Of a stretch of 64,000 nucleotides of DNA, positions 1 through 64,000 are shown in pieces (within the stretch, counting starts at the first letter, position 1; each line of letters opens with the position of its first letter). Origin of the DNA: Nostocoides sp. HKS02. Lineage in GTDB: Bacteria > Actinomycetota > Actinomycetes > Actinomycetales > Dermatophilaceae. Location: the NCBI RefSeq assembly GCF_009707485.1, contig NZ_CP046121.1:1612001-1676000 (forward strand). The letters are read 5' to 3'. The position numbers and the translations under genes are program-made. Below the pieces are notes generated by a model. It saw only the letters and a list, made by a program, of their open reading frames with translations, did not search any database and had not been told where the DNA came from.

Positions 1-177
1 CAGGACCACGTCGACCGCGGTGCGCTGCAGGGCATGGAGCGCCGCCTGGCTGGTGGTTGCCGTCGCGGCGACGGTGAAGCCGGGCACGCGCTCGACGTAT
101 GCCGTGTGGGCTTCGAGCGCGACCGGTTCGTCCTCGACGACCAGGACCCGCAGCGCCGGCCCGCCCTGGTCAGGCAC
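1..177 (-). CDS. Response regulator, N-terminal fragment (CitB/DctR type)
   Basis: The gene runs off the left edge, so only the first 59 codons are visible. From the GTG at 177 the product starts PDQGGPALR and continues RVLVVEDEPVALEAHTAYVE, the first strand and acidic pocket of a CheY-like receiver. The visible part ends in VDVVL, just before the expected phospho-acceptor Asp. The start lies inside the end of the histidine kinase gene (8-bp overlap), so the two are co-translated as a two-component pair. The output domain is not visible; a CitB/DctR helix-turn-helix is expected from the kinase type. By position the pair may control the divergent dicarboxylate carrier gene at 1914. Confidence 0.8.
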   Translation of the reverse strand, partial: MPDQGGPALRVLVVEDEPVALEAHTAYVERVPGFTVAATATTSQAALHALQRTAVDVVL

Positions 178-1787
178 GGGCCCGTTCCTCGACGGGCAGG
201 CGCACGGTGAAGCGCGCCCCGGGCGGCCCCGAGACCTCCAGGCTCCCGCCCAGCCGCGACACCGACTGCGCGACGAGGGCCAGGCCGATGCCGCGCCGGC
301 CCGCGCTGCCCTGGGCCTTGGTGGAGTAGCCACGGCGAAAGGCCGCGTCGACCGCCTCAGGCGGCAGGCCCGGGCCCGAATCGGCCACACTGAGCACCAC
401 GCAGGCACCGTCGAGCCGGGACGCGACCTCGACCCACCGCTCGCCCCCTGACGAGGCCACGGCGTCGAACGCGTTGTCGATGAGGTTGCCGACGATCGTC
501 ACCACGTCGCGGACCGGTGCCGTGTGGGGCGGCCAGACGGCGTCCGGTGCGATCCGCAGGTCGATCCCCCGCTCGCTCGCCTGGGCGGCCTTGCCCAACA
601 GCAGCGCGGTGAGCGCCGGCTCGGCCACCGCCCCGACGACGCGGTCCGTCAGCAGCTGGGACAGCTGGAGCTCCTCGGTGGCGAACGAGAGCGCACGCTC
701 GGGGTGGCCCAGCTCGATGAGCGACACGATGGCGTGCAGCCGGTTGGCCGACTCGTGGGCCTGCGAGCGCAGCGCCTCGGTGAGACCGCGGGCAGAGTCG
801 AGCTCGCCGGTGAGGTGCTCGAGGTCGGTGCGGTCGCGCAGCGTGGCCACGAAGCCGAGCGCGCGACCCTCCCACTGCGCGCGGGCCTTGTTCAACACCA
901 GCACCCGCGCGGCCGTGACGTGGAGCTCGTCCTGACGGGGCTCGGCGTCCGTGAGGGCCGCCACGAGGGGGAGCCCCCAGCCCCAGGTCCGCCACGCGCC
1001 GTCCTGCGGCGTCGTCGGGCAGTCCGAGCAGCCGCACGGCCTCGTCGTTCGCGAGCAGCAGCCGGCCGTCGAGGTCGGTGAGGATCAGTCCCTCGGTCAC
1101 CGCGTGGAGGACGGCGTCGTAGTACTCGACCATTTCCTGGAGCTGGCGCTCACCGAGCCCGTGCGTCTGCCGTCGGATCCGGCGTGCGACGAGCCCGGTC
1201 CCGAGGCCGGAGAGCAGGGCTGCGGCGAGCCCCGCGAGCAGGATCACCGGCAGCTGGCCACGCAGCTGCTCGCTGACCGCGGTCTCACGGATGCCGACCG
1301 CGACCAGGCCGACGACGCTGCCCCGGGCGTCGCGCACCGGAACGACGACGCGACGCGACGGCCCCAGCGTGCCCGTGTAGTCCTCGACGACGATGCCACC
1401 GGCGCGCGCCGCCTCGATGTGCCCGAGGAACGGCTTGCCGATCTGCGAGGGGTCCGGGTGGGTGTACCTGATCCCCTGTGGGCTCATGACGACGACGAAG
1501 TCGGTGTGCGTCTGCCGGAGGACCTGCTCGGCGAACGGCTGGAGCCCGCTCCTCGCCGCGCCCCCCAGGACCCCGCTGACGACCAGCGGGGTGCTCGCGA
1601 CCGTCTCCGCGACGGCCGTCGCCCGAGAGGTGGCCTCCTGTCGTCCGGCCCGTTGGGTCTGGGCATACGCCGCGACGGTGCCGACGACGACCACCAGCAG
1701 GGCCACCAGCACCTGCAGCGCGAAGGTCTGCCCGGCGACGCTCCACCGCGCCGGCGCACGCACCCATCGGGCCGCGCTCACCGGCAT
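170..1787 (-). CDS. Sensor histidine kinase, CitA/DcuS family, with apparent frameshift
   Basis: The product is a membrane sensor kinase. From the ATG at 1787 there is one membrane helix near residues 24-42, an extracytoplasmic sensor domain with the typical TDFVVVMSPQGIRYTHPDP stretch, a second helix near 177-200, and a PAS domain (TEGLILTDLDGRLLLAND). Reading then shifts frame. The second frame carries the SpoB-type dimerisation helix with its His (SQAHESANRLH) and the ATPase N box (GNLIDNAFDAV) and G boxes (DSGPGLP, GIGLALV). The break maps to a five-G run at 967-971 (five C on the coding strand); removing one base joins the frames and gives about 538 residues, normal for the family. It is either a sequencing error or a recent mutation. 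DcuS/CitA kinases sense C4-dicarboxylates or citrate, which fits the divergent DctA-type carrier. Confidence 0.85.
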
Positions 1788-1913
1788 ACGAGCCGCCGAC
1801 GCGGGCCGAACTCAATGAACACAACGGTGACCCTAGTCACCCCGGTGGCCCAGTCTCGTGGCTTGTTCAGCTCTCCCTGGCAATCGCCCGGGACCAACCT
1901 CCTGGAGAACACC

Positions 1914-3464
1914 GTGACCCGCAGCGCCGACACTGTCGTCGACCGCCCCGCCCCGAGGCGCGACCGCACGCACTTCCTCTACCTCGCCGTCATCGTGGCG
2001 ATGATCCTGGGCATCCTCGTCGGATTCGCCTTTCCCGAGTTCGGTGTGCAGCTCAAGTGGCTCGGCACCGGCTTCGTCAACCTCATCAAGATGATGATCA
2101 CGCCGATCATCTTCTGCACCATCGTCCTGGGCATCGGCTCGGTGCGGAAGGCCACCCAGGTGGGCAAGGTCGGCGGGCTCGCGCTGGCCTACTTCCTCAC
2201 CATGTCGACGGTCGCCCTGGCGATCGGCCTGGTCGTCGGGAACCTCATCCACCCTGGCGCAGGCCTGCACCTGACCAAGGAGCTCGCTGCCAGTGGGCAG
2301 AAGCAGGTGGGGGCGGCGCACACCAGCACCGCCGACTTCATCCTCGGCCTGATCCCCGACACGCTCGTGTCCTCGCTGACCGCTGGGTCGGTCCTGCAGG
2401 CACTCCTCGTCGCGCTGCTCGTCGGCTTCGCGTTGCAGAAGATGGGACGCACCGGCGAGCCGATCCTGGCCGGTATCAAGCACTTCGAGCGGCTCGTCTT
2501 CCGCCTCATGGCGATGATCATGTATGCCGCGCCCATCGGTGCCTTCGGCGCGATGGCGGCCGTGGTGGGCGCCACCGGGTGGAAGGCCCTGCAGAGCCTG
2601 GCCATCGTCATGGTGGCGTTCTACATCACGTGCGCGTTGTTCGTCTTCGTCGTCCTCGGCTCGATCCTCAAGCTCGCCACCGGCGTGAACGTGTTCGCGT
2701 TGCTGCGCTACCTCGCCCGCGAGTTCCTGCTCATCCTGTCGACGTCGTCCTCGGAGTCGGCGCTGCCGCGGCTCATCGCGAAGATGGAGCACGCCGGGGT
2801 CTCCCGTCCGGTGGTGGGCATCACGGTGCCGACCGGGTACTCGTTCAACCTCGACGGCACCGCGATCTACCTGACGATGGCCTCGCTGTTCATCGCCGAC
2901 GCCCTGGACAAGCCGTTCTCGATCGGCCAGCAGATCTCGTTGCTGCTGTTCATGATCATCGCCTCCAAGGGCGCCGCAGGCGTGACCGGGGCGGGGCTGG
3001 CGACGCTGGCCGGCGGCCTGCAGTCACACCGCCCCGACCTGGTCGACGGCGTCGGCTTCATCGTCGGCATCGACCGGATGATGAGCGAGGCTCGGGCGCT
3101 GACCAACTTCGCCGGCAACTCCGTCGCCACGGTCCTGATCGGCCACTGGGTCGGCGAGCTGGACCGCCCCCGCCTCGACGCCGTGCTCGCCGGCGACCTG
3201 CCGTTCGACGAGTCCACGCTGCTGGACGACGAGGTGCATGGTGCACCGCCCTCGGGGCCCGACGATGGGTTGGGTGCCACGACGGCGGTCCACACCACCC
3301 GGGAGCCGGCCGCGCAGCCCCCGCTGAACCACGTGACCGACTCCTGGCCAACGCCAGTGCCCCGGGCTCGCGCCGCCGCGTGGGCTCGGGGCATTCACCT
3401 GGGCTGGGAGCTGGGTGACGCCGCGCATCGGCGTCGTTCTCCCTGCCCGGCGTCGATCGTGTGA
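1914..3464 (+). CDS. dctA: C4-dicarboxylate/proton symporter, DctA family
   Basis: This is a secondary carrier of the DAACS (glutamate/dicarboxylate:cation symporter) family, 516 residues from the GTG at 1914. That start is preferred because GGAG lies 7 bases upstream; an ATG at 1815 is in frame but has no such site. Family signatures are clear: the serine-rich re-entrant loop STSSSESALPRL, PTGYSFNLDGTAIYLT, and NFAGNSVATVL in the last helix. Substrate is probably succinate, fumarate or malate. The last 60 or so residues after the usual end are hydrophilic and low in complexity, and have no family match I can name. The gene is divergent from the CitA/DcuS-type kinase, whose regulator may control it. 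Confidence 0.9.
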   Translation: MTRSADTVVDRPAPRRDRTHFLYLAVIVAMILGILVGFAFPEFGVQLKWLGTGFVNLIKMMITPIIFCTIVLGIGSVRKATQVGKVGGLALAYFLTMSTVALAIGLVVGNLIHPGAGLHLTKELAASGQKQVGAAHTSTADFILGLIPDTLVSSLTAGSVLQALLVALLVGFALQKMGRTGEPILAGIKHFERLVFRLMAMIMYAAPIGAFGAMAAVVGATGWKALQSLAIVMVAFYITCALFVFVVLGSILKLATGVNVFALLRYLAREFLLILSTSSSESALPRLIAKMEHAGVSRPVVGITVPTGYSFNLDGTAIYLTMASLFIADALDKPFSIGQQISLLLFMIIASKGAAGVTGAGLATLAGGLQSHRPDLVDGVGFIVGIDRMMSEARALTNFAGNSVATVLIGHWVGELDRPRLDAVLAGDLPFDESTLLDDEVHGAPPSGPDDGLGATTAVHTTREPAAQPPLNHVTDSWPTPVPRARAAAWARGIHLGWELGDAAHRRRSPCPASIV

Positions 3465-3585: not shown

Positions 3586-3606
3586 CGTCGAATGGTGTGC
3601 GCTGGG

Positions 3607-4550: not shown

Positions 4551-5543
4551 TCACGGGCCGAGCCGGCCCCGCGAGCAGGTGCTGCTGAGAAAGGGCGCCA
4601 GAGCTGCTCGCGACCTGGCGTCCATGAAGGCCACCGGCACCTCCGTCGGCGAGAACCGCGCGGGGACCGTGCCCACGCGGCCTGCGGCCGTGGCCTGGTG
4701 CAGACCCCAGAGGAGACCGGTCAGGGTGACCAGTGAGCTGCCGCTGTCGCGGCGCAGCCGCGGTGCCGCGGACCACGCCATCTGCTGGGCGGTGAGCGGG
4801 TTCGCCACGGCATCCGCAAGCTGGCGCATGACCTGGGACGCGTGCGAGCTGCGCGTCGGGTCGGCAGCTGCATCCGGGACCCAGCGGCCCGCCCGCCGCA
4901 CCTCCGGATGCCGTGAGCGCACCCACGCGAGCGCCTGTGCGCCGCCGAGGTGGTGTGACCCTGCCGTGGGCAGGTTCAGTCCCGAGCCCAGGTCGCGGAC
5001 CGGCCCCTCGGTCGTGACGGTGATGCCTCCTGCTGCGTCAACAGCGTCGATCAGCCCCACGAAGTCGGCGATGACCACGTGGTCCACGCCCACCCCGAGA
5101 TCTCGGCACATGCTGTCGACCATGGCCTGCGGGCCGAGCTGGAGCGTCATGCCCACGCGATGTGGGTCGTGGTCGTGCGTGCCGACGTAGAGGTCGCGAG
5201 GCACCGACAGGAGGGCTGCGCCACCGTGCCCGCCCGTCCTGAGCAGGTAGATGAGGTCGGCGCGTTCGCCCTGGGCCTGAACGGGATCGGCATACCTCTG
5301 GCGGTCCGCGCCCTCGAGGCGCTGCCGGGAGTCCGACGCGAGCAGCAGGTAGACCTGCGACCCATCCGAGGTCGGGACATGCACCGCGATCGTGGGGATG
5401 CGCTGAACCACCACGAGCGCGTCGGTCAGCAGGGCGACCACCACGACCAGCGCGAGCAGGGACCCCACAGCCGCCAGTCGTACGGCGCGCGACGGCCGAA
5501 CAGGTGTGGGTGTGCGAGCTGCTGCGCGCCAGGGGCCGGGCAT
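4551..5543 (-). CDS. LytR-CpsA-Psr (LCP) family protein
   Basis: The 330-residue product starts at the ATG at 5543, 5 bases after the stop of the LuxR regulator. It has a short cytoplasmic N-terminus, one membrane helix (VGSLLALVVVVALLTDALVV), then an LCP domain outside the cell: YLLLASDSRQRL, ERADLIYLLR, ALLSVPRDLYV, and HLGGAQALAWVRSRH with conserved Asp and Arg residues. LCP enzymes move polymers such as teichoic acid or arabinogalactan from lipid carriers to peptidoglycan. The tight coupling behind a LuxR regulator suggests joint regulation. The C-terminal part after about residue 250 is less conserved. Confidence 0.85.
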   Translation of the reverse strand: MPGPWRAAARTPTPVRPSRAVRLAAVGSLLALVVVVALLTDALVVVQRIPTIAVHVPTSDGSQVYLLLASDSRQRLEGADRQRYADPVQAQGERADLIYLLRTGGHGGAALLSVPRDLYVGTHDHDPHRVGMTLQLGPQAMVDSMCRDLGVGVDHVVIADFVGLIDAVDAAGGITVTTEGPVRDLGSGLNLPTAGSHHLGGAQALAWVRSRHPEVRRAGRWVPDAAADPTRSSHASQVMRQLADAVANPLTAQQMAWSAAPRLRRDSGSSLVTLTGLLWGLHQATAAGRVGTVPARFSPTEVPVAFMDARSRAALAPFLSSTCSRGRLGP

Positions 5544-5548
5544 GGCGG

Positions 5549-8533
5549 TCAGTATCGCCTGTCCTCCCTCTCGTCGTTCGAGGTCGCCTCGGCGCGTCTG
5601 GTGGCCCAGGCTGCGGCCTCCACCCGGCTCGTCGTTCCAGACTTGCGCAGGATGTTGGAGATGTGGACGCTGACGGTCTTGTCGCTGATGAACAGCGCCT
5701 TGGCGATCTCGCTGTTCGAGCGACCGGCCACGACGTGGGTGAGGACCTCCTGCTCGCGAACAGTGAGCCCGGCCCAGGGCCGCTCGCCAGACCCCGACGG
5801 CGGGGCTTGGGCGACGGGGTCCAGGGCCAGGTGCGCCGCACGGGCCGTGGTCTCGACCGCTCGACCCAGGGGCACCGCACCGAGCTCCAGTGCGGTGGTC
5901 ATGGCGTCGCGCAGGAGCCCCGCGGCCTCGGCCCTTGGCCGGCCCGCCCTGAGGACGGCGCGCGCCTCGTGCGAGGCAGCGACCGCCGCCTCCCAGCGCA
6001 GCCCCGCCCGCCGGCACGCGCCGCGCGCGCAAGCCCAGGACTCGGCCTGGTCAGGCTGATCTCGCAGCCGTGCCAGCTCCGCCTCGTACAGGGCCGCACG
6101 GGCCGGCTGGATCAGATCGGCCTCGTTCCACGGGGCGAACATCGGTCTGTCGCTACTGAACGCGGCTGCCCTCAGGACGGCGGCGTGCTGGCCCTCCGCG
6201 ACCTCGGTTGCGTCGTCCTGGCCGCGGTCTCGACCGTCCTGCGCGAGGTCTGCCGCGGCCCGGGCAGCAAGCAGCACGAGCTCGTCGGCGTCGCGCGGAT
6301 CGGCCAAGCTCGCCGCCCTGACCTGCGCTTCCACGATGGCCAGGGCCTCCGCGGGGCGCCGTTGGGCGATGAGCAGCTCGGCCCGACCGAACGGGTACGT
6401 CGCCGTGCCGAGGTACTCGGTCGAGGAGATCTGCGCGGCCCTGGCCAGCTGGTCCTCCGCCCTCGCCAGGTCTCCCCGGCGGACGCAGAGGATGGCCATG
6501 GTGCAGCGGGCCACCGCCTCCCGGTGTCCCCCGTCAGCCGCCGCCAGGGATGGCCGCAGGCTCGCCTCGGCCCTGGCCCACTGGCCCAGGCACAGGGCGA
6601 AGTACGCGGCAGAGGTCAGCACGAACCGAGCCGCGGCCGGCGCGCCAGCCACGATCAGGTCGGTGCCTCGACGCAGGCCCGAGTCCAGCGCCGCCGCATA
6701 CTCGCCATGGACCTCGTGGAGGTTGTGCATGCCCAGGGCGGCATCGGTCATCTCGATCGCTTCGCCGCTGATCCGGGCCAGCTCGTACGCCTCCTCGAGC
6801 CAGCCCATGGCCACGTCCGTCTCGGGCCGGGTGAGGGCGCTCACGACCAAGGCCGGGATGACCGCGTCCGGGGAGCCCGTCTCCCTTGCGGTCCGCAGGG
6901 CGGCATCGGCAAGCTCACGGCCTCGTTGGTCACCTGCCCACCACTGCGTCCACGCGAGCTGCGAGTCGACGATGGCGCGCTCCGGCGTGCCGGGAAGGGC
7001 CTCGGCGATCTGCTCGGCCTCTCGCAAGGCGGGAGTGACCACCGTCCAGGCCAGGTGCTCGGCCTCGACCTGCATCCGATGTCGCAGCGTCAACAGTCGG
7101 CAGGCCACGCCGGGGCTGCTCGCCCGGTCGCACAAGGCCAGGGCCTGGTCGATCAGGTCGAGGGCCTGGTCCGGCTCGGCCACACCCTGGGCCGCGCGGC
7201 TCGTGCGCAGCAGCAACGCCACATACTCCTCGGGCGCCTCGGCGGCCGCACGCACGCGCGGCCACAGTCGGCAGGCCCGCCGAAGGTGCTCCAGACGCTC
7301 GGCAGCCCCCTGGAGCGCGGCCGCCGAATCCGCAGCCGCGAGGGACCAGCGGAGCGCCTCGCTCCACTCCCCTGCCTGCTCGTGGTGCCTGGCCACGTCC
7401 CCGGGCTCGGGTGCATCAGAGTCCGCGAGCACCTTGGCGTATGCCGAATGGGCCGGGGCGGGATCCGGGCCCATCAGGTCACTGGTCAGGACCTCGGCGA
7501 TCAGGGGGTGGCGAAACCACACCTGGTTTCCCTCGGGGTGGGCGAGCACCCCTGCGGCGACCGCCTCGGCGACCGCTTCACGCAGCTCGTCGCCATACCT
7601 CGAACCGTCGCCCAACAGGCCGACCACCCGCTCGACCAGCGAAACCGCCACTGGTCGCCCACCGATCGCCACGAGGCGCGTGACCTCGCGCGCCGGCTCG
7701 CTCAGTCCGTACCAGCGCACCAGCAGCGCGGCCCGCAGTGCCTCGGACACCTCGGCCGCCGACGGCGGACCTGCGGGCTCGCGGACCACCAGCTCGGTGA
7801 GATACGGGTTGCCGCCCGAACGCGCAAAGACCCGCGCGGCCAGTCCGCCGTCGGCGTCACGGCGACCCATCAGGGCCGCGACCTGGTCGGCCGTGTCCTC
7901 GGGTCCGAGCCGCTCCAAGTGGACTTCGCTCATCGCGAGGTTCCGCCGCATCTCAGCGAGCCACCCGTTGACCGGGTGCCCGTCCGGACGGTCCTCGTCC
8001 CGCAGTGTCGCGATGACGGCCACCGTCTGGGTGCGCAGCCCGGCAACCAGGAACGCGAGCAGGTCGAGCGTGGACGCGTCAGCCCACTGCAGGTCGTCGA
8101 TCACGAGGACCACCGGATCGCGCTGGGCAATGCGCAGCACTGCGGTGTCCATCTGGGTGAGCAGCAGCCCGGACTCCGGGTCCCCGCCCTGGGGAGCGCT
8201 GGGCAGCAGCACGCTCAGCGCGCCGAGGCCCGCGAGCACCTCGACCCGTTCCTGGTGGCTCGCGCCGGACAACCAGCCTTCGAGAGCGGACAGCACGGCG
8301 GCGAACGGCACTGCCGACCCCGAGAAGTGGACGCACGTCCCCCACAGCACCTGGCCGGTGAAGCGGGCACAGGCGTCGCGCACCAGAGCGGTCTTGCCCA
8401 CCCCGGCCTCGCCGTGGACGAGCAGGATGCTCGGCTCGCCCTGTGCTGCGCAGGCCAGCACCGCCGCAAGTCGCGTCAGCTCCTCGCTCCGCCCGACGAG
8501 CGGCACCGACTGCCCCGCTGACGGTGCACCCAT
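5549..8533 (-). CDS. Large LuxR-family ATP-binding regulator (LAL/MalT-like)
   Basis: This is a roughly 994-residue regulator. The AAA-type ATPase region is at the N-terminus: PLVGRSEELTRL, Walker A HGEAGVGKTAL, Walker B VLVIDDLQWAD. A long helical repeat region follows (tetratricopeptide-like, ligand or partner binding). The C-terminus is a LuxR/GerE helix-turn-helix: LTVREQEVLTHVVAGRSNSE, then IAKALFISDKTVSVHISNIL. The start at 8533 places the ATPase near the N-terminus as in the family; an in-frame ATG at 8638 would add 35 residues and is not excluded. LAL proteins are ATP-switched activators of metabolic or secondary-metabolite genes. The target here is unknown, but the LCP gene directly downstream is an obvious candidate. 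Confidence 0.85.
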   Translation of the reverse strand: MGAPSAGQSVPLVGRSEELTRLAAVLACAAQGEPSILLVHGEAGVGKTALVRDACARFTGQVLWGTCVHFSGSAVPFAAVLSALEGWLSGASHQERVEVLAGLGALSVLLPSAPQGGDPESGLLLTQMDTAVLRIAQRDPVVLVIDDLQWADASTLDLLAFLVAGLRTQTVAVIATLRDEDRPDGHPVNGWLAEMRRNLAMSEVHLERLGPEDTADQVAALMGRRDADGGLAARVFARSGGNPYLTELVVREPAGPPSAAEVSEALRAALLVRWYGLSEPAREVTRLVAIGGRPVAVSLVERVVGLLGDGSRYGDELREAVAEAVAAGVLAHPEGNQVWFRHPLIAEVLTSDLMGPDPAPAHSAYAKVLADSDAPEPGDVARHHEQAGEWSEALRWSLAAADSAAALQGAAERLEHLRRACRLWPRVRAAAEAPEEYVALLLRTSRAAQGVAEPDQALDLIDQALALCDRASSPGVACRLLTLRHRMQVEAEHLAWTVVTPALREAEQIAEALPGTPERAIVDSQLAWTQWWAGDQRGRELADAALRTARETGSPDAVIPALVVSALTRPETDVAMGWLEEAYELARISGEAIEMTDAALGMHNLHEVHGEYAAALDSGLRRGTDLIVAGAPAAARFVLTSAAYFALCLGQWARAEASLRPSLAAADGGHREAVARCTMAILCVRRGDLARAEDQLARAAQISSTEYLGTATYPFGRAELLIAQRRPAEALAIVEAQVRAASLADPRDADELVLLAARAAADLAQDGRDRGQDDATEVAEGQHAAVLRAAAFSSDRPMFAPWNEADLIQPARAALYEAELARLRDQPDQAESWACARGACRRAGLRWEAAVAASHEARAVLRAGRPRAEAAGLLRDAMTTALELGAVPLGRAVETTARAAHLALDPVAQAPPSGSGERPWAGLTVREQEVLTHVVAGRSNSEIAKALFISDKTVSVHISNILRKSGTTSRVEAAAWATRRAEATSNDEREDRRY

Positions 8534-9009: not shown

Positions 9010-10993
9010 ATGAACCGCCTCGCGCACTCGACGAGCCCATATTTGTTGCAGCACAAGGACAACCCTGTCGACTGGCAGGAGTGGGGGCCGGAGGCCTTCG
9101 AGGAAGCCCGGCGCCGTGACGTGCCCGTCCTGCTCTCGGTCGGGTATGCCGCGTGTCACTGGTGCCACGTGATGGCCCACGAGTCGTTCGAGGACGACGA
9201 GGTCGCCGCGGCGCTCAACGAGGGCTTCGTCGCCGTCAAGGTCGATCGCGAGGAGCGCCCGGACGTCGACTCGGTCTACATGTCGGCCACCACGGCGCTG
9301 ACCGGCCACGGCGGCTGGCCGATGACCTGCGTCCTCACTCCGGACGCGGAGCCGTTCTTCTGCGGCACCTACTTCCCGAAAGCCCAGTTCCTCCACGTGC
9401 TGGCCCAGGTGCGCGAGGTCTGGACCACCCAGCGAGAGCGCGTCACCGAGAGCAGCGCACACATCTCCGACCGGCTGCGCGAGCTCACGGCGTCGACCAG
9501 CGCGCAGCCGATCGACGACGCCGCCCTGGCCCAGGCAGTGCAGGGCCTGCGCAGCCAGTTCGACCTGGCCCGCGGTGGCTTCGGCGGCGCCCCGAAGTTC
9601 CCGCCGTCGATGGTGCTCGAGTTCCTGCTGCGCCACCATGCCCGGACCGGCTCGGCCGACGCGCTGGCGATGGCGCGGCGGACGTGTGAGGCCATGGCCC
9701 GCGGCGGGATCTACGACCAGCTGGCCGGTGGCTTCGCGCGGTACTCCGTCGATGCTGCCTGGGTAGTCCCCCACTTCGAGAAGATGCTCTACGACAACGC
9801 CCAGCTGCTGCGCGTCTACGCCCACCTGTTCCGCACGACTGGCGACGACCTGGCCCGACGGGTCACGGCCGAGACCGCCGCCTTCCTCGTGCGTGACCTC
9901 GGCACCGGCGAGGGCGGTTTCGCCTCCGCGCTCGACGCCGACACCGACGGCGTCGAGGGCCTGACCTACGCGTGGACGCCCGACCAGCTGGCCGAGGTAC
10001 TCGGCGAGCACGACGGTCGCACCGCGGCGGAGCTGCTCGGCGTGACTGAGCAGGGCACGTTCGAGCACGGCAGCTCGACGCTCCAGCTGGCGACCGACCC
10101 CGACGACCCCGAGTGGTGGCAACGGGCTCGACACCTGTTGTGGCAGAGCCGCAACCGCCGTCCCCAGCCCGCGCGCGACGACAAGGTCGTCACGTCGTGG
10201 AACGGCCTGGCGATCGCCGCGCTCTCCGACGCTGCCGTCCTCCTCGACGATGCCGCGCTCCTTGCCGCCGCACAGCAGTGCGCCGAGTTCGTCGTGGACA
10301 CCCACCTCGTGGAGGGTCGCCTGCGCCGCTCGTCACGAGGTGGACGCGTCGGTGCCGCACACGGCGTGGCCGACGACTACGGCAACCTGGCCGAGGGGCT
10401 GCTCGCGCTTGTTCCAGGCCAGTGGTGAGGCACGCTGGCTGACGGTGGCCCGCCGACTGCTCAGCACGGCTGTCGACCAGTTCGGGGACGACGACGGGGG
10501 GTTCCACGACACCGCCGCGGATGCCGAGCCGCTCCTGCTGCGCCCGCGCACCACCGCAGACAACGCCGAGCCGTCGGGGCAGTCCGCGCTCGCCGGTGCG
10601 CTCCTGACCTGCTCCGCCCTCACCGGTGACGCCAGCCAACGCGAGCGCGCCGAGGCGGCTCTGGCGGCCTCCGGGCAGCTCGCCTCGCGGGACCCCCGGT
10701 TCGGTGGCTGGGCGCTTGCCGTCGCCGAGGCAGCCGCCGCTGGACCCCTGCAGGTCGCCGTGGTGGCAGCCCAGCCGGGTGACCCACTCGCGGGGGACCT
10801 GCTGGCCGTGGCTCGGCGCTCGTCGTCCCCGGGTCTGGTCGTCGACCACGGGTCGGTCGGCGAACCCGACCACCCCTTGCTCGCCGAGCGCCCCCTCGTC
10901 GCCGGCCGCGCGGCGGCATACGTGTGCAGGGGGTTCGTCTGCGACGCTCCGGTGACGGAGGTCGAGGCGCTCACCCGCGCGTTGGCGCGCTGA
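9010..10993 (+). CDS. Thioredoxin-like DUF255 protein (YyaL/SPATA20 family), with apparent frameshift
   Basis: The N-terminal domain is a thioredoxin-fold DUF255 domain: [20 protein letters not shown], then the active-site-like CHWCHVM, followed by [11 protein letters not shown] and [11 protein letters not shown]. An alpha/alpha-toroid (six-hairpin glycosidase-like) region follows. The first frame stops at 10426-10428, while the expected continuation ([16 protein letters not shown] to ALTRALAR) lies in the next frame. One extra base at about 10408-10412 explains this; corrected length is about 660 residues, normal for the family. The biochemical role of the family is not settled. The gene ends two bases from the convergent Crp-type gene. 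Confidence 0.85.
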
Positions 10994-12001: not shown

Positions 12002-13567
12002 TCACCAGGGCAGTGGTTGGGGGGTCAACGCTGCCTGCGCCTCGGCGCGCAACGCCTGCTCCGCCTCCGCGTAGACCTGCTCGGCCTGCGCCGCGCTCTC
12101 GCCGATGGCGGTCATGCCCACCCGACCGCACTCGGTGATCGCGCTGATCATGTGGAAGACGACGCCGCGCTGGCGGGCCTGGTCGTAGTGCATGCCGGTC
12201 CGCGCCACCAGGTCGAAGAGGTCCTCGACCCGCAGGCCGTGCAACAGCGGGTCCTCGAAGTGGTCCGTGGCGACGAGGTGCCGTTCGGCGCCGGCAGGCG
12301 TGAGGAACCGGGCGCTCTGCGGGTCGTACCGGCCGTCGGTGAGGAACTGGAGGGTGAGGAACGGGTGGGTGGTGCCTCCCTTGCGCAGGTTGATCTCGAT
12401 GGCATGGCTTTCCCACGCGGCGCCGTCGCGCACGACGACGAAGTCGATGGCGAACCGTCCCATGACCCCCTTGCGCGCCAGCACCTCGCTGATGCGGACG
12501 GCTTCGGCCGTGATCAACGGCGCGTATGCCGGGTCGGCCGGGAACCGGGCGCCCAGGTAGGACTGGCCGCTGGGTCCACCGAGGATCTGGTCGTGCGTCG
12601 AGAGGATCTCGAGGACACCGCGTGGCGTCACGCGCAGCTGGACACTCGGGCTGCGCACCTCGTCGCCAACGATGCGCTCCTCGACGATGCCGCGCCGCTC
12701 AGCCAGCTTGGCGAGGAACGCGTCGATGCCGATCGCGTTGTCCTCCAAGGCCATCGCGGCAATTCGCTGCCTCAGCGCGGCCGCCTCCTCGGCGCTCCCC
12801 GGGGCCGGCAGGCCGGTGAGGTCGACGACCGCGTTGCCCGAGCCGGACACGCCCTCGTTGAGCTTGAGCATCGCGGACCGTGCGGCCGGGCGGCGCGCCC
12901 GCAGTGCCGTGAGCGCGGTGACCACCTCCGCCGGCGTGGCCAGGTCCTCCGACCCGGCCGGGAACTGGACGCCCGCCTCGGTGAAGACCTGGCGACACCC
13001 CGACTTGGTACCGAGCGGGAACAGGCGGGGATCCGCGGCATACATCGGGATGCCCAGCTCGATGGCGAGGTCGCGCTCCATCGCGGTGGTGTTGTAGGGC
13101 ACGAGGTGGCACCGGTGCGGGTCGGGGATGAGCGAACGGATCAGGGCCAGCAACCGGGGACGGGCGAGGAGCTTCTCGGTCAGCGCGCCGGGTCGGGCAT
13201 CGCCCACGCTGACGAGGTGGAGCCGCGACCGGGCGTGGCTGGGGATGACGCCGGGCAGCAGCGAGAGGTAGTACTCGATGATGGCCGGGTCGATCGTCAC
13301 CGAGGTCACGTAGACCATCCGCAGGCGTGGCTGGCGCAGCAGGAGCAGCATGAACAGGAACCGCTCCTCCATCGCCTGCGTCATGCCCGGGCTCGACGCC
13401 ACCACCCGGTCGAGTGTCAGCGAGGGCACGACGACGACGGACTCCATCGGGTCGCCGGTCTGGATGCCGTCCCACACGGCCGGCAGGCGCTCCTGCAGGC
13501 GGTCGAACACGGCATACCGCGCGGTGTCGTCGAGCTCGCCCAAAGTCGGCGGGGTCGACGCCCTCAC
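12002..13567 (-). CDS. ATP-grasp peptide ligase, PGM1-related
   Basis: A 521-residue ATP-grasp enzyme. The core shows AMLKLNEGVSGSGNAVVDL, IVGDEVRSPSVQLRV and the very typical IEINLRKGGTTHPFLTLQFL, which marks the PGM1-related family (PGM1 is the peptide ligase of pheganomycin synthesis). The family joins a carboxylate to an amine with ATP. No obvious peptide-precursor gene lies nearby. The GTG start at 13567 overlaps the stop of the receiver-cyclase gene by 4 bases (GTGA). It is therefore the last gene of a signalling operon, an unusual setting for a ligase. Substrate is unknown. Confidence 0.8.
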   Translation of the reverse strand: MRASTPPTLGELDDTARYAVFDRLQERLPAVWDGIQTGDPMESVVVVPSLTLDRVVASSPGMTQAMEERFLFMLLLLRQPRLRMVYVTSVTIDPAIIEYYLSLLPGVIPSHARSRLHLVSVGDARPGALTEKLLARPRLLALIRSLIPDPHRCHLVPYNTTAMERDLAIELGIPMYAADPRLFPLGTKSGCRQVFTEAGVQFPAGSEDLATPAEVVTALTALRARRPAARSAMLKLNEGVSGSGNAVVDLTGLPAPGSAEEAAALRQRIAAMALEDNAIGIDAFLAKLAERRGIVEERIVGDEVRSPSVQLRVTPRGVLEILSTHDQILGGPSGQSYLGARFPADPAYAPLITAEAVRISEVLARKGVMGRFAIDFVVVRDGAAWESHAIEINLRKGGTTHPFLTLQFLTDGRYDPQSARFLTPAGAERHLVATDHFEDPLLHGLRVEDLFDLVARTGMHYDQARQRGVVFHMISAITECGRVGMTAIGESAAQAEQVYAEAEQALRAEAQAALTPQPLPW

Positions 13568-52011: not shown

Positions 52012-52042
52012 ACCACGCGGCATACGGGTATGCCGCGCGTGG
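52012..52042. terminator. Hairpin built from an inverted pair of the GTATGCCG motif
   Basis: CGGCATAC at 52018-52025 and GTATGCCG at 52028-52035 form an 8-bp stem with a 2-base spacer; ACCACG and CGTGGT extend the stem past a small bulge. It lies in the 89 bases between cdsA and rlmN. It probably works as a terminator or an RNA-processing site. Confidence 0.65.
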
Positions 52043-54519: not shown

Positions 54520-56484
54520 ATGATGAGGTCCGGCATCCTCCCCGGTCACCGCGACGACGCGGTGCGCCCCCAAGACGACCTGTTCAGCCACGCCAACGGC
54601 ACGTGGGTGCGCGAGACGCAGATCCCGGCTGACCGGGGGCGCTACGGCACCTTCGACATCCTGCGCGAGCAGTCCGACGAGCGCGTCCGGGGCCTCATCG
54701 AGCAGGCCGCGGCCGACACCGAGGCCGAACCGGGGTCGCTGACCCGCAAGGTCGGCGACCTCTACCGCGCGTTCATGGACGAGGCCAGGGTCGAGGAGCT
54801 GGGTCGCACGCCGATCGACGCCGACCTCGCCCAGGTCGCGGGCGCCCGCACGGTCGAGGAGCTGTTCGGGCTCGCCGGCCGCCTCCAGCGGCAGGGCTGT
54901 CCCGGCCCGCTGGGCATGGGCGTGGCCCCCGACGCCAAGTCACCCGACCAGTACGTCCTCTACGTCGGCCAGGCCGGTCTCGGCATGCCGGACGAGTCCT
55001 ACTACCGCGAGGAGCGCCACGAGGCGATCCGCGCGGCCTACCTGCCCCATGTGGCGCGCATGCTCGCCCTCGCCGGCATCGGCGAGGGTGCCACCGCCCC
55101 CGGGTCGCCGGCCGCCCGCGTTGTCGCCCTCGAGACCCGCCTCGCGGCCCACCACTGGGACAACGTGGCCACCCGAGACGCCGTGAAAAGCTACAACCCG
55201 TTCACCTGGGCCGAGCTCGAGGCCACCGCGCCGAAGGTGCCGTGGACGGCATACGTCGAGGAGCTGGGCGCCCGAGCGGCTTTCGAGCGGGTCGTCGTCG
55301 GGCAGCCGGACTTCCTCGCGGGGCTCTCCGAGGCGGTCGCCGAGGTTCCGCTCGAGGACTGGCAGGCGTGGCTCGCCTTCCACGTGGTCGAGTCCGCGGC
55401 GCCGCTGCTGAGCGCCGAGTTCGTCGACGCCGAGTTCGACTTCTCCGGGCGGGTCGTGTCGGGCCTCCCGGCCAACCGTGAGCGCTGGAAGCGTGGCGTC
55501 ACCCTCGTCGAGGGCGCCATCGGTGAGGCCGTCGGTCAGCTGTATGCCGCACAGTACTTCCCGCCCGAGGCCAAGGCGCGCATGCTCGAGCTCGTCGCCA
55601 ACCTCGTCGAGGCGTTCCGCCGCTCCTTCGAGGGCTTGGACTGGATGGGTCCGCAGACCCGGGCTCAGGCCTTGGAGAAGCTCGCGTCCTTCACGCCCAA
55701 GGTGGGCTACCCCGACACCTGGCGCGACTACTCCGCCCTGGTCGTCGACGACGACCTCGTCGGCACCGTCCGGCGCGCCAGCGAGTTCGAGCTCGAGCGC
55801 CAGCTCGGCCAGCTCGGTGGGCCCATCGACCGCGACGAGTGGATGATGCTGCCGCAGGCGGTCAACGCCTACTACCACCCGCTGCTCAACGAGATCGTGT
55901 TCCCCGCTGGGATCCTCCAGCCACCGTTCTTCGACCCTGAGGCCGACGACGCGGTCAACTACGGCGGCATCGGGGCCGTGATCGGCCACGAGATCGGGCA
56001 CGGGTTCGACGACCAGGGCTCGCGGTTCGACGCCTCGGGCGCGCTGCGCGACTGGTGGACCGCCGAGGACCGCGCCCGGTTCGACGAGCGCACCCAGGCC
56101 CTCATCGCCCAGTTCAGCGAGCTCTCGCCGCTGGCCGCGCCCGAGGGCAAGGTCAACGGCGCCCTGACCGTTGGCGAGAACATCGGCGACCTCGGCGGGC
56201 TGGCCATCGGGTTCTCCGCCTATCGGATCGCCACCGAGGACCACGACACACCGGTCCTCGAGGGCTTGACCGGCCCGCAGCGGTTCTTCCTGGGCTGGGC
56301 CCAGGTGTGGTCAGGCAAGGCCCGGCCCGAGGAGGCTCGCCGGCTGTTGGCCGTCGACCCGCACTCCCCCACCGAGGTGCGCGCCAACGCGGTCCGCAAC
56401 TGCGACGAGTTCCACGAGGCGTTCGGCGTCCAGGAGGGCGACGGCATGTGGCTCGCGCCCGAGCTGCGGGTCCGCATCTTCTGA
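54520..56484 (+). CDS. M13-family zinc endopeptidase (PepO-like)
   Basis: A 654-residue metalloprotease. Zinc motif GAVIGHEIGHGFDDQGSRFD (HExxH) and the third ligand Glu in TVGENIGDLGGLAIGFSAYR. NAYYHPLLNEIVFPAGILQP is the substrate-strand motif. No signal peptide is present, so it is cytoplasmic. AAGGAG precedes two consecutive ATG codons (54520 and 54523). It interrupts the tsf-pyrH spacing on the opposite strand. Confidence 0.93.
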   Translation: MMRSGILPGHRDDAVRPQDDLFSHANGTWVRETQIPADRGRYGTFDILREQSDERVRGLIEQAAADTEAEPGSLTRKVGDLYRAFMDEARVEELGRTPIDADLAQVAGARTVEELFGLAGRLQRQGCPGPLGMGVAPDAKSPDQYVLYVGQAGLGMPDESYYREERHEAIRAAYLPHVARMLALAGIGEGATAPGSPAARVVALETRLAAHHWDNVATRDAVKSYNPFTWAELEATAPKVPWTAYVEELGARAAFERVVVGQPDFLAGLSEAVAEVPLEDWQAWLAFHVVESAAPLLSAEFVDAEFDFSGRVVSGLPANRERWKRGVTLVEGAIGEAVGQLYAAQYFPPEAKARMLELVANLVEAFRRSFEGLDWMGPQTRAQALEKLASFTPKVGYPDTWRDYSALVVDDDLVGTVRRASEFELERQLGQLGGPIDRDEWMMLPQAVNAYYHPLLNEIVFPAGILQPPFFDPEADDAVNYGGIGAVIGHEIGHGFDDQGSRFDASGALRDWWTAEDRARFDERTQALIAQFSELSPLAAPEGKVNGALTVGENIGDLGGLAIGFSAYRIATEDHDTPVLEGLTGPQRFFLGWAQVWSGKARPEEARRLLAVDPHSPTEVRANAVRNCDEFHEAFGVQEGDGMWLAPELRVRIF

Positions 56485-58428: not shown

Positions 58429-58459
58429 GCCGTGTCTCCTTGTGCTTGTCAGTTGCGTC

Positions 58460-58519
58460 GGTATGCCGCGTGGGTGCGACCACCTGCCTGGCGCCTGCTA
58501 CGCACCCCACCGGCATACC
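58460..58519 (-). promoter_or_regulatory. Leader hairpin upstream of rpsB
   Basis: GGTATGCCGCGTGGGTGCG at 58460-58478 pairs with CGCACCCCACCGGCATACC at 58501-58519, 17 of 19 positions, around a 22-base loop. Both arms carry the recurrent GTATGCCG motif. It lies 31 bases upstream of the rpsB start codon. It may be an S2 autoregulatory leader or a terminator for upstream read-through. The rest of 58520-58692 shows no gene. Confidence 0.55.
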
Positions 58520-58692
58520 CGCCGGACTGCTGTGGTGCGCCCCGGGTTCGGAGAGATTCCTCGTCACCCGGCGAGAAGACGCGCGAATTAGGTCTCCGCA
58601 CGCACGCGCACGTCGACCGCCGACCATCGTACGTGCTGTGGGGTCGTGCCGCGAAATCCGCGGACGCCCCCGCTGCCCTAGGTTGGTCGGTC

Positions 58693-59060: not shown

Positions 59061-59079
59061 GCACGCGGCATACCCGGTC

Positions 59080-59123
59080 GTGGGCAGCTTCGTCCGGGCC
59101 ATCACCCGGACGATGCTGCCCAC
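59080..59123. terminator. Long hairpin after the MFS remnant
   Basis: GTGGGCAGCTTCGTCCGGG and CCCGGACGATGCTGCCCAC pair at 18 of 19 positions around a 6-base loop. CGGCATAC copies flank it on both sides. It separates the remnant from the aminotransferase gene. Confidence 0.75.
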
Positions 59124-59156
59124 GGGCTGGCGACCTGACGGCATACGCTCGGCCGC

Positions 59157-60314
59157 ATGGCCCGTCCACCCGGCAAACCCTCGCTCGGACCCTTCGGAAC
59201 GACGATCTTCGCGGAGATGACCGCGCTGGCCACCGAACACGGGGCGGTCAACCTCGGTCAAGGGTTCCCCGACACCGACGGCCCTCGCGAGATGCTCGAC
59301 GCGGCCAAGGCGGCCATCGACGGCGGGCGCAACCAGTACCCGCCCGGCCCCGGGGTGCCCGAGCTCCTCGACGCGATCGCTGCGCACCAGCAACGGTTCT
59401 ACGGCCTGACCGTCGACCCGCGCTCAGAGGTCCTGGTGACCGTGGGCGCGACCGAGGCCATCGCAGCCACGATCCTCGCGCTGTGCGAGCCGGGTGACGA
59501 GGTCGTGACGTTCGAGCCCTACTACGACTCCTACGCCGCGTCGATCGCGCTGGCGGGGGCGGTGCGCCGCACCTCGATCCTGCGGTTCCCCGACTTCGCG
59601 GTCGACGAGGCGTCGCTGCGGGCGGCCTTCTCGCCGCGGACCCGGCTGGTGCTGCTCAACACGCCCCACAACCCGACGGGCAAGGTGTTCAGCCGGGACG
59701 AGCTGGAGCTGGTCTGTGCCCTCGCGCAGGAGTTCGACGCCTGGGTGGTCACCGACGAGGTCTACGAGCACCTCGTGTTCTCGGGAGCCGAGCACGTGCC
59801 GGTCGCCACACTGCCGGGGATGGCGTCGCGGACCCTCTCGATCTCGTCGGCGGGCAAGACGTTCTCGGCCACCGGCTGGAAGGTCGGCTGGGTGAGCGGC
59901 CCCGCAGAGGCTGTCTCGGCGGTACGCGCGGTGAAGCAGTTCCTGACCTTCGTGGGGTCAGGACCCTTTCAGCCGGCCGTGGCCGTGGCACTGGGGCTCG
60001 CCGACGAGGTGTATGCCGGGCTGTCCGCCTCGCTCGAGGCCAAGCGGGACCTGCTCGTGGCGGGGCTGCGGTCGGCGGGGCTCGAGGTGTCCGTGCCGCA
60101 GGGGACGTACTTCGTCATCGCAGACGCGGCGCCCCTGGGCGCGGTCGACGCGCTCGAGTTCTGTCGCGAGCTGCCGGCCAGGCTCGGAGTGGTGGGCGTG
60201 CCGGTGTCGGTCTTCCACGACGACGCTGACGCGGCCAGGACCCTGGTGCGCTTCGCCTTCTGCAAGCGGGACGAGGTGCTCCAGCAGGCGGTGGACCGGC
60301 TCCGGTCCCGATAA
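59157..60314 (+). CDS. Class I/II PLP aminotransferase (DapC/kynurenine aminotransferase-like)
   Basis: A 385-residue fold-type I aminotransferase. NLGQGFPDTDGPREMLDAAK, YPPGPGVPELLDAIAAHQQR, LLNTPHNPTGKVFSRDELEL, VTDEVYEHLVF and SISSAGKTFSATGWKVGWVS (Schiff-base Lys) are all present. In this group the substrate may be N-succinyl-diaminopimelate, methionine or kynurenine; sequence does not decide. Confidence 0.9.
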   Translation: MARPPGKPSLGPFGTTIFAEMTALATEHGAVNLGQGFPDTDGPREMLDAAKAAIDGGRNQYPPGPGVPELLDAIAAHQQRFYGLTVDPRSEVLVTVGATEAIAATILALCEPGDEVVTFEPYYDSYAASIALAGAVRRTSILRFPDFAVDEASLRAAFSPRTRLVLLNTPHNPTGKVFSRDELELVCALAQEFDAWVVTDEVYEHLVFSGAEHVPVATLPGMASRTLSISSAGKTFSATGWKVGWVSGPAEAVSAVRAVKQFLTFVGSGPFQPAVAVALGLADEVYAGLSASLEAKRDLLVAGLRSAGLEVSVPQGTYFVIADAAPLGAVDALEFCRELPARLGVVGVPVSVFHDDADAARTLVRFAFCKRDEVLQQAVDRLRSR

Positions 60315-62038: not shown

Positions 62039-62088
62039 CTCGCCACCGTCGCAAATGCTGGCGGGTGGGACAAGCCGCCACCCCGCTG

Positions 62089-63204
62089 CTACCGCCGCCG
62101 ACCCGCTTTCGACCACTCGTTGGCCACACTGCGGCGGGCGAGTCCGGAGAGCTCGAGCACGCCCAGCGCCGCCCGGACCTCGCCCAGGCTCTGACCACAG
62201 CGCCGGGCGATGTCCTCCACCGGCGCCGGCTTGCGGACCGGCAGCGCCGCGTAGACCCCCCGATGCGCCTCGTCGTGGTCGTCGCCCGACCGAACCGGCC
62301 CGCGCTTCGCCGCGACCACCTCGCCCATCCGGCCGACGAGCTCGACGACCTCGGCGGCATCGGTCACGAGCACGGCCTCCCCGTCACGGATCAGCTGGTG
62401 GCACCCGGCTGACACCGCCGACTCCACCGAGCCCGGGAGCGCACAGACGACCCGGTTGGTCTCGTTGGCAGTGCGTGCGGTGTTCAGCGAGCCCGAGCGC
62501 AGACCGGCCTCGACGACCAGCGTGCCCTGGCTGAGCGTGGCAATCATCCGGTTGCGGGCGATGAACCGCACCGCTGTGGGAGCCGCGCCCGGGGGCACGT
62601 CGGTGACCACCAACCCGTCGCGCCACAGCTGCGCGAACAGGTCGTCATGGCCCCGCGGATACGGCCGGTCGATGCCACCCGCGGTGAACGCGATGGTGCT
62701 GCCCTCGACGCCCAGCGCTCCGCGGTGCGCGGCGCCGTCGATGCCGTAGGCGGCGCCAGACACCACGGCGAAGCCCCGCTCGGCGACGCCTGCCGCGAGG
62801 TCAGCGGCCTGACGCAGGCCGTACTGGGTGGCGGCTCGGGCCCCGACGATCGACACACTGCGCTCGCTCTCAGCGGCGAGGTCGAGGGGCCCGCGCAGCC
62901 AGAGACACAGCGGCGGGTCGATGAGCGAGTCGAAGCCCCGCGGCCACTGCGCATCGCCGGGGACGACGATCCGGGCGCCGAGGTGGCGGGCGATCTCGAG
63001 GTCACGGCTGACATCGAGGGTTTCGACCCGTGGGAGCATCCGCTGCCCGAGCCGGTCATCGAGGTCCACCGCGTGCAACGCATCCTCGGGCCCGAGGGCG
63101 GCGATGAGCTCGAGGGCTTGCCGGTCGCGGGGCTCGACGAGTCGAGCCCACGCGACGCGAGCCGCGCGGTCCCCAGCGGGCACGCTGATCTGAAGCCGGC
63201 TCAT
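62089..63204 (-). CDS. dprA: DNA processing protein DprA
   Basis: A 371-residue protein that loads RecA on incoming single-stranded DNA. Rossmann region: SIVGARAATQYGLRQAADLA, VVSGAAYGIDGAAHRGALGV, GGIDRPYPRGHDDLFAQL, FIARNRMIATLSQGTLVVEA, RSGSLNTARTANETNRVVCA. A winged-helix-like C-terminal domain follows (ARRCGQSLGEVRAALGVLEL). ATG overlaps the comM stop by 4 bases (ATGA). Confidence 0.95.
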   Translation of the reverse strand: MSRLQISVPAGDRAARVAWARLVEPRDRQALELIAALGPEDALHAVDLDDRLGQRMLPRVETLDVSRDLEIARHLGARIVVPGDAQWPRGFDSLIDPPLCLWLRGPLDLAAESERSVSIVGARAATQYGLRQAADLAAGVAERGFAVVSGAAYGIDGAAHRGALGVEGSTIAFTAGGIDRPYPRGHDDLFAQLWRDGLVVTDVPPGAAPTAVRFIARNRMIATLSQGTLVVEAGLRSGSLNTARTANETNRVVCALPGSVESAVSAGCHQLIRDGEAVLVTDAAEVVELVGRMGEVVAAKRGPVRSGDDHDEAHRGVYAALPVRKPAPVEDIARRCGQSLGEVRAALGVLELSGLARRSVANEWSKAGRRR

Positions 63205-64000
63205 GCGGCCACGGCACCGTGCTGGCGCAAGGTCAGAGCCGTGCCGAGGTCGCCCCGGGTCGGGGTCGACCGGCCCGCCAAGTCGGCCACCGTCCAGCCC
63301 ACCCGGAGCACGCGGTCGTAGCCACGCAGGGTGAGGTGGCCGCGGTCGAGCGCAGCGTCGATATCGACGGTCACGGTCCTCGGCAGCCGCCACGGCCCTC
63401 GGCGCAGGCGGGCGCCCGGGACCTGGCTTGTTGAGCGACCATGACGTCTGGCCCCACCGCTGATGCTGAGCCGCGCGGGCCTGGCGAACGCGCTCCGCGA
63501 CGACCGCGCTCGACTCACCGGGCTCACCCGACAGCGACGATCGGGTCACCGCCGGCACGTGCACCTGCAGGTCGACCCGGTCCATGAGCGGGCCAGAGAG
63601 CTTGCCGAGGTAGGCGCGCTTGGCCATCGGCCGGCACACGCACTCGGTGCCCTTGCCGAAGCCGAGCCCGCAGGGGCACGGGTTGGCAGCCATGACCAGC
63701 TGGAACCTGGCCGGGAAGCGCACAGCCGCCCGCGCCCGGGACACCACGACGGTGCCGGACTCCAACGGCTGGCGCAGCGCCTGGAGCGCACCGGTGCGGA
63801 ACTCTGGCGCCTCATCGAGGAACAGCACGCCGTGGTGGGCCTGCGAGATCGCCCCGGGGCGCACGGCCCCGCTGCCACCGCCGATGATCGCGGCCTGCGA
63901 CGCGCTGTGGTGAGGCGCGACGAACGGTGGGACACCACCGATCTCGAGCTCGTCGGCCCGGACTCCCAGCAGCGAACGCACTGCGAGGACGTCGATGGAC
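63201..64000 (-). CDS. ComM/YifB-type AAA ATPase, C-terminal part, with apparent frameshift
   Basis: The gene enters from the right edge; its N-terminus is outside. The visible part has HHSASQAAIIGGGSGAVRPG, SQAHHGVLFLDEAPEFRTGA (Walker B), VMAANPCPCGLGFGKGTECV (Cys-rich loop) and LSGPLMDRVDLQVHVPAVTR. One extra base near 63427-63432 shifts frame; the true end is QVPGARLRRGPWRLPRTVTV and LRGYDRVLRVGWTVADLAGR. ComM-type helicases extend strand exchange after DNA uptake in competent bacteria. It is coupled to dprA. Confidence 0.88.

Follow-up and report, generated by a model that had tools for sequence, protein, structure and literature searches.

The window analysed here is a 64,000-nucleotide stretch of the genome of Nostocoides sp. 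HKS02 (contig NZ_CP046121.1, positions 1,612,001 to 1,676,000), and it is densely marked with one octamer, GTATGCCG. We propose that this word serves the Dermatophilaceae/Intrasporangiaceae as a DNA-uptake (self-recognition) sequence and is one dialect of a family-wide system, a reading to which we assign a probability of roughly 0.7. It is favoured because of a pattern observed directly in the genomes: the word is abundant and dense, exists as dialects, is replaced by another word in one group, is spaced in a strand-specific manner, is conserved at orthologous sites, is scarce in one motif-poor island and accompanies ComEC and Tad-type genes. A previous sequence-only reading of the window had pointed first to uptake sequences as a parallel, and otherwise to a methylation or maintenance site; we retain that suggestion on the strength of the sequence pattern, to which the family limits, the dialects and the strand-specific spacing are additions.

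The window contains 49 exact copies of GTATGCCG, 24 on the plus strand and 25 on the minus strand, against a mean of 0.76 and a maximum of 3 in 100 shuffles, and the word tops the over-representation ranking of the 8-mers of the window. The sequence-only reading had reported about 50 copies for about two expected; its total was nearly exact, its enrichment is borne out and its coordinates were correct within 1–3 bases, with the strand split given as 24 and 26. The full-genome count that it had proposed as a check yielded 2,537 copies in the 3,482,451 bases of the HKS02 genome (G000), or one per 1.37 kb, against 159 (94 + 65) for the reversed-pattern control. Hundreds to thousands of exact copies, far beyond chance, is the copy number expected of the DNA uptake sequences (DUS) of Neisseriaceae and the uptake signal sequences (USS) of Pasteurellaceae. 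Orientation is even, as had been noted, with 1,273 copies on one strand and 1,264 on the other, and no consistent strand bias was seen across 20 stretches of the genome; judged from these totals and stretches, with the origin position not mapped, there is no replication skew of the kind associated with FtsK-orienting polar sequences (KOPS). The word is not palindromic, as a word of the type of the cyanobacterial highly iterated palindrome (HIP1) would be, and a longer consensus sought in its flanks in G000 was not found.

The coding context was analysed in 544 kb of G000 (the window and 24 stretches of 20 kb, with genes called by a rough, home-made caller), which hold 377 copies: 298 in coding sequence, 77 between genes and 2 at gene edges. 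The density is higher between genes (0.82/kb) than within them (0.66/kb). The earlier claim of mixed frames and intergenic copies holds in that all six frames are used, with the qualification that two of them dominate: 153 coding copies read x-Tyr-Ala and 95 read Ala-Tyr on the opposite strand, the remaining 50 falling across four other frames. A codon, codon-pair or mutational bias could be suspected from these 248 Tyr-Ala or Ala-Tyr copies out of 298. However, synonymous-codon shuffling leaves an expectation of 12.7 coding copies where 298 are observed, which rules out codon or codon-pair bias as the cause and confirms the previous view that a protein-level cause is unlikely; the higher intergenic density and the different dialects of related genera also argue against it, and we give this explanation practically no weight.

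Among the 24 words differing from GTATGCCG by one base, only GGATGCCG (112 against 65) and CTATGCCG (17 against 9) are clearly raised in this sample, with a marginal rise of GAATGCCG (11 against 6.5). Because so few are raised, all eight positions of the word must matter. Its TAC spelling, GTACGCCG, is depleted, with 25 copies for 75 in the synonymous null. The depletion of this preferred-codon neighbour would suit an origin in methylation or biased repair, of the kind considered for HIP1, an over-represented octamer linked to orphan methyltransferases in the available part of one report (PMC4390886). Such an origin is nevertheless very improbable for GTATGCCG, given that the word is not palindromic, that its dialects vary at several positions and that biased repair does not predict the avoidance between same-strand copies over 1 kb described below.

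With a threshold of at least 140 copies per Mb, 37 of the 60 family genomes, representing 27 of 50 genera, count as high in GTATGCCG; they span 156–1,125 copies per Mb and reach at least 2.5 times the reversed control, the minimum being that of G025. In 38 members of the same order outside the family, the counts were all close to the reversed-pattern control. A class-wide survey of 296 genomes included 6 family members, 4 of them high in the word, and 290 genomes of other families, none of them high; the maximum among the latter was 386 copies in 7.5 Mb. The neighbouring genera, which the sequence-only reading had recommended for comparison, thus show the enrichment to be a trait of one actinobacterial family. 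Whole-genome counts in named relatives, made for 40 of the 80 loci retrieved in a scan with TadC of the tad-b locus (see below), were high in Pedococcus bigeumensis (2,551), P. cremeus (2,417), Knoellia sinensis (2,485), K. aerolata (1,971), Terrabacter aerolatus (2,163), Intrasporangium calvum (1,225, control 463), Flexivirga caeni (2,304) and a Lapillicoccus metagenome-assembled genome (3,681). They were low in Janibacter terrae (22), J. limosus (32), Marihabitans asiaticum (41) and Kribbia dieselivorans (60), and near control in Cellulomonas, Isoptericola, Rothia and Frankia. Of the other 23 family genomes, ten carry one-base dialects (two of them weakly) or, in the Janibacter group, the unrelated word CGAAGGGGG; in the remaining 13, no word was found in samples of 16–60 kb each combined with whole-genome counts for four words. 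G029 is borderline among these motif-less genomes (81 copies per Mb, 2.3 times the control).

Dialects were sought in samples of 5–60 kb per relative, enlarged to 111 kb for G037, 120 kb for G022, 160 kb each for G036 and G049 and 420 kb for G046, and they proved specific to taxa, as those of DUS and USS are. Compared with synonymous shuffles, GGATGCCG is raised in G036 (29 against 5.7), G026 (38 against 6.6) and, weakly, G011 (17 against 4.8), GTATGCGG in G030 (9 against 1.0), and GTATGCCC occurs alongside GTATGCCG in G056 (6 against 0.1). Whole-genome counts give 3,135 copies of GAATGCCG in G022 and at most 388 in the other 53 genomes. For GTATGACG they give 1,954 in G037, 1,557 in G013, 834 in G014, 597 in G021, 563 in G043, 319–347 in G044, G028 and G015, and at most 161 in the remaining genomes. 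The dialect GTACGMCG, found in G033, G049 and G057 and weakly in G034, is the least certain, because TAC and GCC are likely preferred codons; it was retained because GTACGCCG exceeds the synonymous null 4–5 fold in the first three genomes and because the pooled group shows the alternation described below. GCCGAAGCC was rejected as a dialect of Nostocoides, as all 16 copies behind its excess lie on the same strand of a single 18.8-kb stretch of Nostocoides sp. F2B08, possibly as a local repeat. Outside these dialects, GCTGCCCG occurs 23 times for 3.7 expected in the coding DNA of a 20-kb stretch of Xylanimonas oleitrophica.

The Janibacter-like genomes, poor in GTATGCCG, bear CGAAGGGGG instead: 1,939 copies in G046, 1,666 in G047, 1,797 in J. 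terrae, 1,311 in J. limosus, 1,854 in Marihabitans and 1,344 in Candidatus Janibacter merdipullorum, against 13–74 in the other 54 of the 60 genomes, none of the 60 being rich in both words. A tree of ComEC from 56 genomes requires 17 changes of word state, below the mean of 25.9 obtained with shuffled labels and yet many.

The arrangement of the copies is strand-specific. Adjacent copies in G000 are oppositely oriented in 234 of 352 cases, against 176.4 (standard deviation 9.4) after permutation and a maximum of 211 over 5,000 permutations. Pair correlation in the same genome revealed a same-strand depletion that reaches about 1.3 kb: the observed-to-expected ratio is 0.62 at 8–60 bp and 0.12 at 60–200 bp, then 0.29, 0.33, 0.71, 0.59, 0.57, 0.89 and 1.0, whereas opposite-strand pairs stay at 0.72–1.22 beyond 60 bp and reach 1.69 nearer in. 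Between 60 and 1000 bp there are 48 same-strand pairs for 113.6 expected and 133 opposite-strand pairs for 125.7; the lowest same-strand ratio over 134 control octamers of the same genome, with 200–420 copies each and forming a smaller set than the 300 intended, was 0.75. Alternation recurs in the relatives, where 8 control octamers were used: 139 of 214 pairs are opposite in GTATGCCG-bearing genomes (107.5 permuted), 52 of 79 in the two GGATGCCG genomes (40.0) and 104 of 166 in the pooled GTACGMCG group (83.4). Below 1 kb, GGATGCCG in the larger G036 sample forms 34 same-strand pairs for 71.5 expected and 72 opposite pairs for 78, and CGAAGGGGG in G046 shows the same exclusion, with 35 same-strand pairs for 56.9 at 60–1500 bp. 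Mutation or repair bias is disfavoured because neither predicts copies that avoid each other across hundreds of bases, whereas such avoidance is predicted by selection, or by biased uptake whose returns diminish on each strand. The same-strand exclusion further suggests that GTATGCCG works in one direction.

Orientation-specific action would also fit a Chi-like signal, which a helicase-nuclease (RecBCD, or the actinobacterial AdnAB) reads in one orientation to pass from degradation to recombination, and Chi words also differ between distant lineages. We regard this as unlikely. RecC was not found in G000, and among 54 family genomes it was detected in 19, that is in 11 of 41 motif-bearing and 8 of 13 motif-less ones. 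Chi itself behaves in the reverse manner, as it is replication-skewed and, in 300 kb of Escherichia coli K-12 (65 sites), lacks same-strand exclusion (11 pairs against 8.8) and is short of opposite pairs (1 against 5.8). Nor would a Chi-like signal be expected to change dialect repeatedly, or to be lost, within a single family. RecBCD-Chi in particular was rejected on the RecC distribution and the E. coli spacing and, with no consistent strand skew either, the earlier judgement that Chi and KOPS fit badly stands. Somewhat less likely still is a site at which a nucleoid protein binds to organise or maintain the chromosome, which would explain the even density on both strands, inside and between genes. 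Such a site sits poorly with the 13 family genomes in which sampling found no word, with the switch of the Janibacter group to an unrelated word, with an exclusion confined to same-strand copies and with a strand bias that is not consistent along the genome.

Three further observations accord with the uptake reading. First, inverted close pairs, a feature of DUS and USS, are present, in weak excess for GTATGCCG (12 against 7.1 within 60 bp) and in strong excess for CGAAGGGGG in G046 (16 against 2.3 within the same distance). In the window, hairpin-forming pairs lie between genes at 52018..52025 (minus strand) and 52028..52035 (plus; predicted fold −23.8 kcal/mol) and at 58461..58468 (plus) and 58511..58518 (minus; −41.2 kcal/mol), and another inverted pair lies within a gene at 30443..30450 (plus) and 30466..30473 (minus). 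Second, GTATGCCG is preferentially conserved at orthologous sites: at 70–78% identity it is intact in 362 of 974 cases against 772 of 7,662 for flanking words, at 78–82% in 72 of 139 against 195 of 1,095, and at 86–92% in 14 of 18 against 35 of 120, these counts including both directions of each pair and related genomes and hence not being independent. Third, the word is scarce in acquired-looking DNA, as seen in one island of G000 (L044, C1:1980001–2000000), where a single copy occurs in 20 kb for about 14 expected (P about 1.5e-5); this stretch has a lower GC content, a type III restriction-modification pair and a HipA-like gene. Two 20-kb stretches of G046 (L228 and L231) with a single CGAAGGGGG copy each are possible acquired islands as well.

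The other copies in the window, all exact matches, are located on the plus strand at 97..104, 2522..2529, 7439..7446, 9144..9151, 12524..12531, 14834..14841, 16973..16980, 17492..17499, 17919..17926, 21922..21929, 25018..25025, 28866..28873, 37355..37362, 41918..41925, 45872..45879, 47320..47327, 47533..47540, 48542..48549, 50551..50558, 55542..55549 and 60011..60018. On the minus strand they are found at 1782..1789, 5288..5295, 10914..10921, 13036..13043, 13510..13517, 18892..18899, 19912..19919, 23261..23268, 24247..24254, 27989..27996, 28157..28164, 34417..34424, 36028..36035, 37975..37982, 42772..42779, 45350..45357, 47142..47149, 49305..49312, 50224..50231, 55247..55254, 59066..59073 and 59139..59146, the last two being intergenic. 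Four of the 49 copies, among them the inverted pair at 58461 and 58511, fall within about 700 bases free of called genes (58429–59156). Elsewhere, an intergenic 15-base unit containing GTATGCCG is repeated three times in tandem (L045, 6380–6417).

Genes of the transformation machinery are also present in the family. ComEC was found in 57 of 60 genomes and T2SSF proteins of the TadB/TadC type in 51 of 52; comEA, comEC and tad genes are all present within the family, and DprA, a transformation protein, is encoded in the window. A single open frame on the minus strand (62089..63981) comprises the C-terminal part of ComM (YifB; Mg_chelatase, residues 15–148) and DprA (TIGR00732, above the cut-off). 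Both comM and dprA, as listed in the sequence-only reading, are therefore present, with the difference that they share one frame, which departs from the usual two genes and hints at indels in the G000 assembly. A XerC-like tyrosine recombinase (60587–62116) adjoins dprA.

Which of these components might read the word was approached by comparing motif-bearing and motif-less genomes. A classic type IV pilus was rejected as the machinery, PilM being detected in only 2 of the 60 genomes and not in G000; the type IV pilus of the Neisseria kind, to which ComP belongs, is a feature of Neisseria and not general to uptake sequences. ComEC was rejected as the deciding gene, its 57 genomes including motif-less ones. 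ComEA is not a visible discriminator either, as a similar helix-hairpin-helix C-terminus was present in most loci where the upstream frame was picked up; in several loci there was no upstream frame or a wrong one, and the comparison did not extend to residues tracking the dialects. G000 has three tad loci, of which tad-b, encoding CpaF, TadB, TadC, Flp, TadE and TadF-like and TadG-like proteins, is widely shared and adjoins prfB/ftsX in relatives; a scan with its TadC placed the related genomes, all Dermatophilaceae/Intrasporangiaceae, in Pedococcus, Phycicoccus, Knoellia, Terrabacter, Intrasporangium, Tetrasphaera/Nostocoides, Ornithinibacter, Lapillicoccus, Flexivirga, Janibacter, Marihabitans and Kribbia. 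A strong match (>160 bits) to the TadF-like pilin of tad-b is found in 39 of the 42 genomes that bear a motif and in 7 of the 13 that do not (Fisher P 0.003, a value that ignores kinship). We thus consider a Tad-linked reader of the word as a candidate; tad-b as the sole reader was rejected, the association being contradicted by the three motif-rich genomes named below.

In many family members, the tad-b pilus genes adjoin a gene for an FHA/FtsK-type protein (1,400 residues in L114, 2736–6938) resembling EssC/EccC of type VII secretion. This neighbour gives some support to another DNA-transfer route, in which the word would serve conjugation by a TraB/FtsK-like translocase or the action of a gene transfer agent, and actinobacterial TraB translocases do recognise 8-bp repeats. 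The protein, however, is a far closer match to type VII secretion ATPases than to TraB, and translocase words are usually clustered or skewed. On these two points, both of which concern translocases, we consider such a route a poor candidate, placing it below both the Chi-like and the nucleoid-site explanations.

Under the uptake reading, a reader on the cell surface, most likely one associated with the Tad/Flp pilus or with ComEA, would bind the word in free DNA, ComEC would pull in one strand, and DprA and RecA would recombine the imported strand. The word would accumulate because word-bearing DNA enters more often, building up at tolerated sites through biased uptake and recombination to about one copy per 1.4 kb. 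The copies on one strand seem to act independently of those on the other, and import or processing is therefore probably unidirectional from the word. A change of reader would entail a change of word, giving rise to the dialects and, in the Janibacter group, to a different word. Binding, uptake, direction and the reader are the parts of this scheme that we infer. We also advance, with about as much doubt as belief, a more specific proposal: that Gram-positive bacteria have here a polar uptake signal, in which the orientation of the word fixes the imported flank, so that each strand holds its own spaced set, and that the reader, acting in Tad-pilus transformation, shifted inside one family via six or more variants that differ from GTATGCCG at one base and via one full replacement (GTATGCCG to CGAAGGGGG), raising a barrier to gene exchange between genera.

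Several observations weigh against the uptake reading. ComEC and Tad genes are present in motif-less genomes as well, and the tad-b pilin has motif-rich exceptions: G036 gives no match, G027 gives a weak match, and the match in G046 is partial and contains a stop. ComEC of G000 is matched in two adjacent frames (C1:1517076–1517881, L109) where its congeners give one match, which reflects an indel in the assembly or else the decay of this competence gene. The spacing is not uniform across dialects: GTATGMCG genomes do not alternate (68 of 130 pairs against 65.4), pairs at 60–1000 bp in G037 are somewhat depleted in both orientations (same-strand 29 against 45.8, opposite 33 against 44.1), GAATGCCG alone shows no exclusion in the G022 sample, and neither does GTACGCCG alone in the larger G049 sample (56 of 112 against 56.4). 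At orthologous sites of 82–86% identity, GTATGCCG hardly exceeds the flanks (18 of 56 against 112 of 417). Of 22 copies sampled from Intrasporangium-like genomes (G025, G031, I. calvum and I. chromatireducens; stretches L079, L083 and L143), 21 are located outside called genes and 16 carry the extension GTATGCCGCTNNGC, found in 1 of 377 copies in G000. This form may be a longer dialect, too long for genes, or an intergenic element of another kind, and because of it our confidence is slightly lowered. Moreover, Haemophilus uptake is independent of orientation, according to the part of the report available (PMC1939737), because of which strand-specific exclusion is not a known property of uptake sequences. 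Finally, no uptake or transformation experiment on family members was found in the literature searched.

Abundant uptake sequences have been described for Neisseriaceae and Pasteurellaceae (PMC1939737, PMC7811141, both available in part), and no earlier report of GTATGCCG was found in the open-access literature, most subscription papers and all preprints being outside this coverage. If the uptake reading is true, the labelling would be the first known to us in Gram-positive bacteria, and the trait would evolve repeatedly and without an outer membrane. With its 50 genera, its several dialects, one complete change of word and sister genomes that lack a motif, the family is a natural experiment for finding the receptor, and it could also be used to test selfish drive against mate choice. 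The strand-specific exclusion yields a sharp prediction, directional import, and the right word may render these environmental bacteria genetically tractable.

Among known systems, the USS of Pasteurellaceae likewise include divergent word types in one family; they have extended flanks, whereas GTATGCCG in G000 has none. GTATGCCG shares ATGCCG with the 12-base AT-DUS, probably by chance. Copies of USS also occur about once per kb and form inverted pairs as terminators, in the accessible text of PMC7811141; unlike the exclusion seen here, their uptake is reported to be orientation-independent (PMC1939737). With the DUS/ComP system of Neisseriaceae, for which eight dialects (PMC3630211) and inverted terminator pairs, a spacing resembling conversion fragments and under-representation in insertions (PMC2397512) are described in the portions available, GTATGCCG has in common thousands of copies, genus dialects, inverted intergenic pairs, a spacing of about 1 kb and scarcity in insertions. 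It differs in its monoderm actinobacterial hosts, in its association with Tad-type genes instead of PilM, in being an 8-base word without flanking consensus and in its strand-specific exclusion. Micrococcus luteus, an actinobacterium that transforms via Flp/Tad pili with comEA and comEC and without comG (PMC6370729), resembles the Dermatophilaceae/Intrasporangiaceae in its comEA, comEC and tad genes, and the available part of that report mentions no uptake sequence. E. coli Chi (GCTGGTGG) is also an over-represented, non-palindromic octamer, though skewed, not self-excluding and tied to a RecC that G000 appears to lack; HIP1 (GCGATCGC) is a highly iterated octamer across a clade as well, and its palindromic form leaves it without orientation. 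In its sequence behaviour the word of the Dermatophilaceae/Intrasporangiaceae resembles DUS and, if our reading is true, it would have originated independently in monoderms, with a strand-specific twist.

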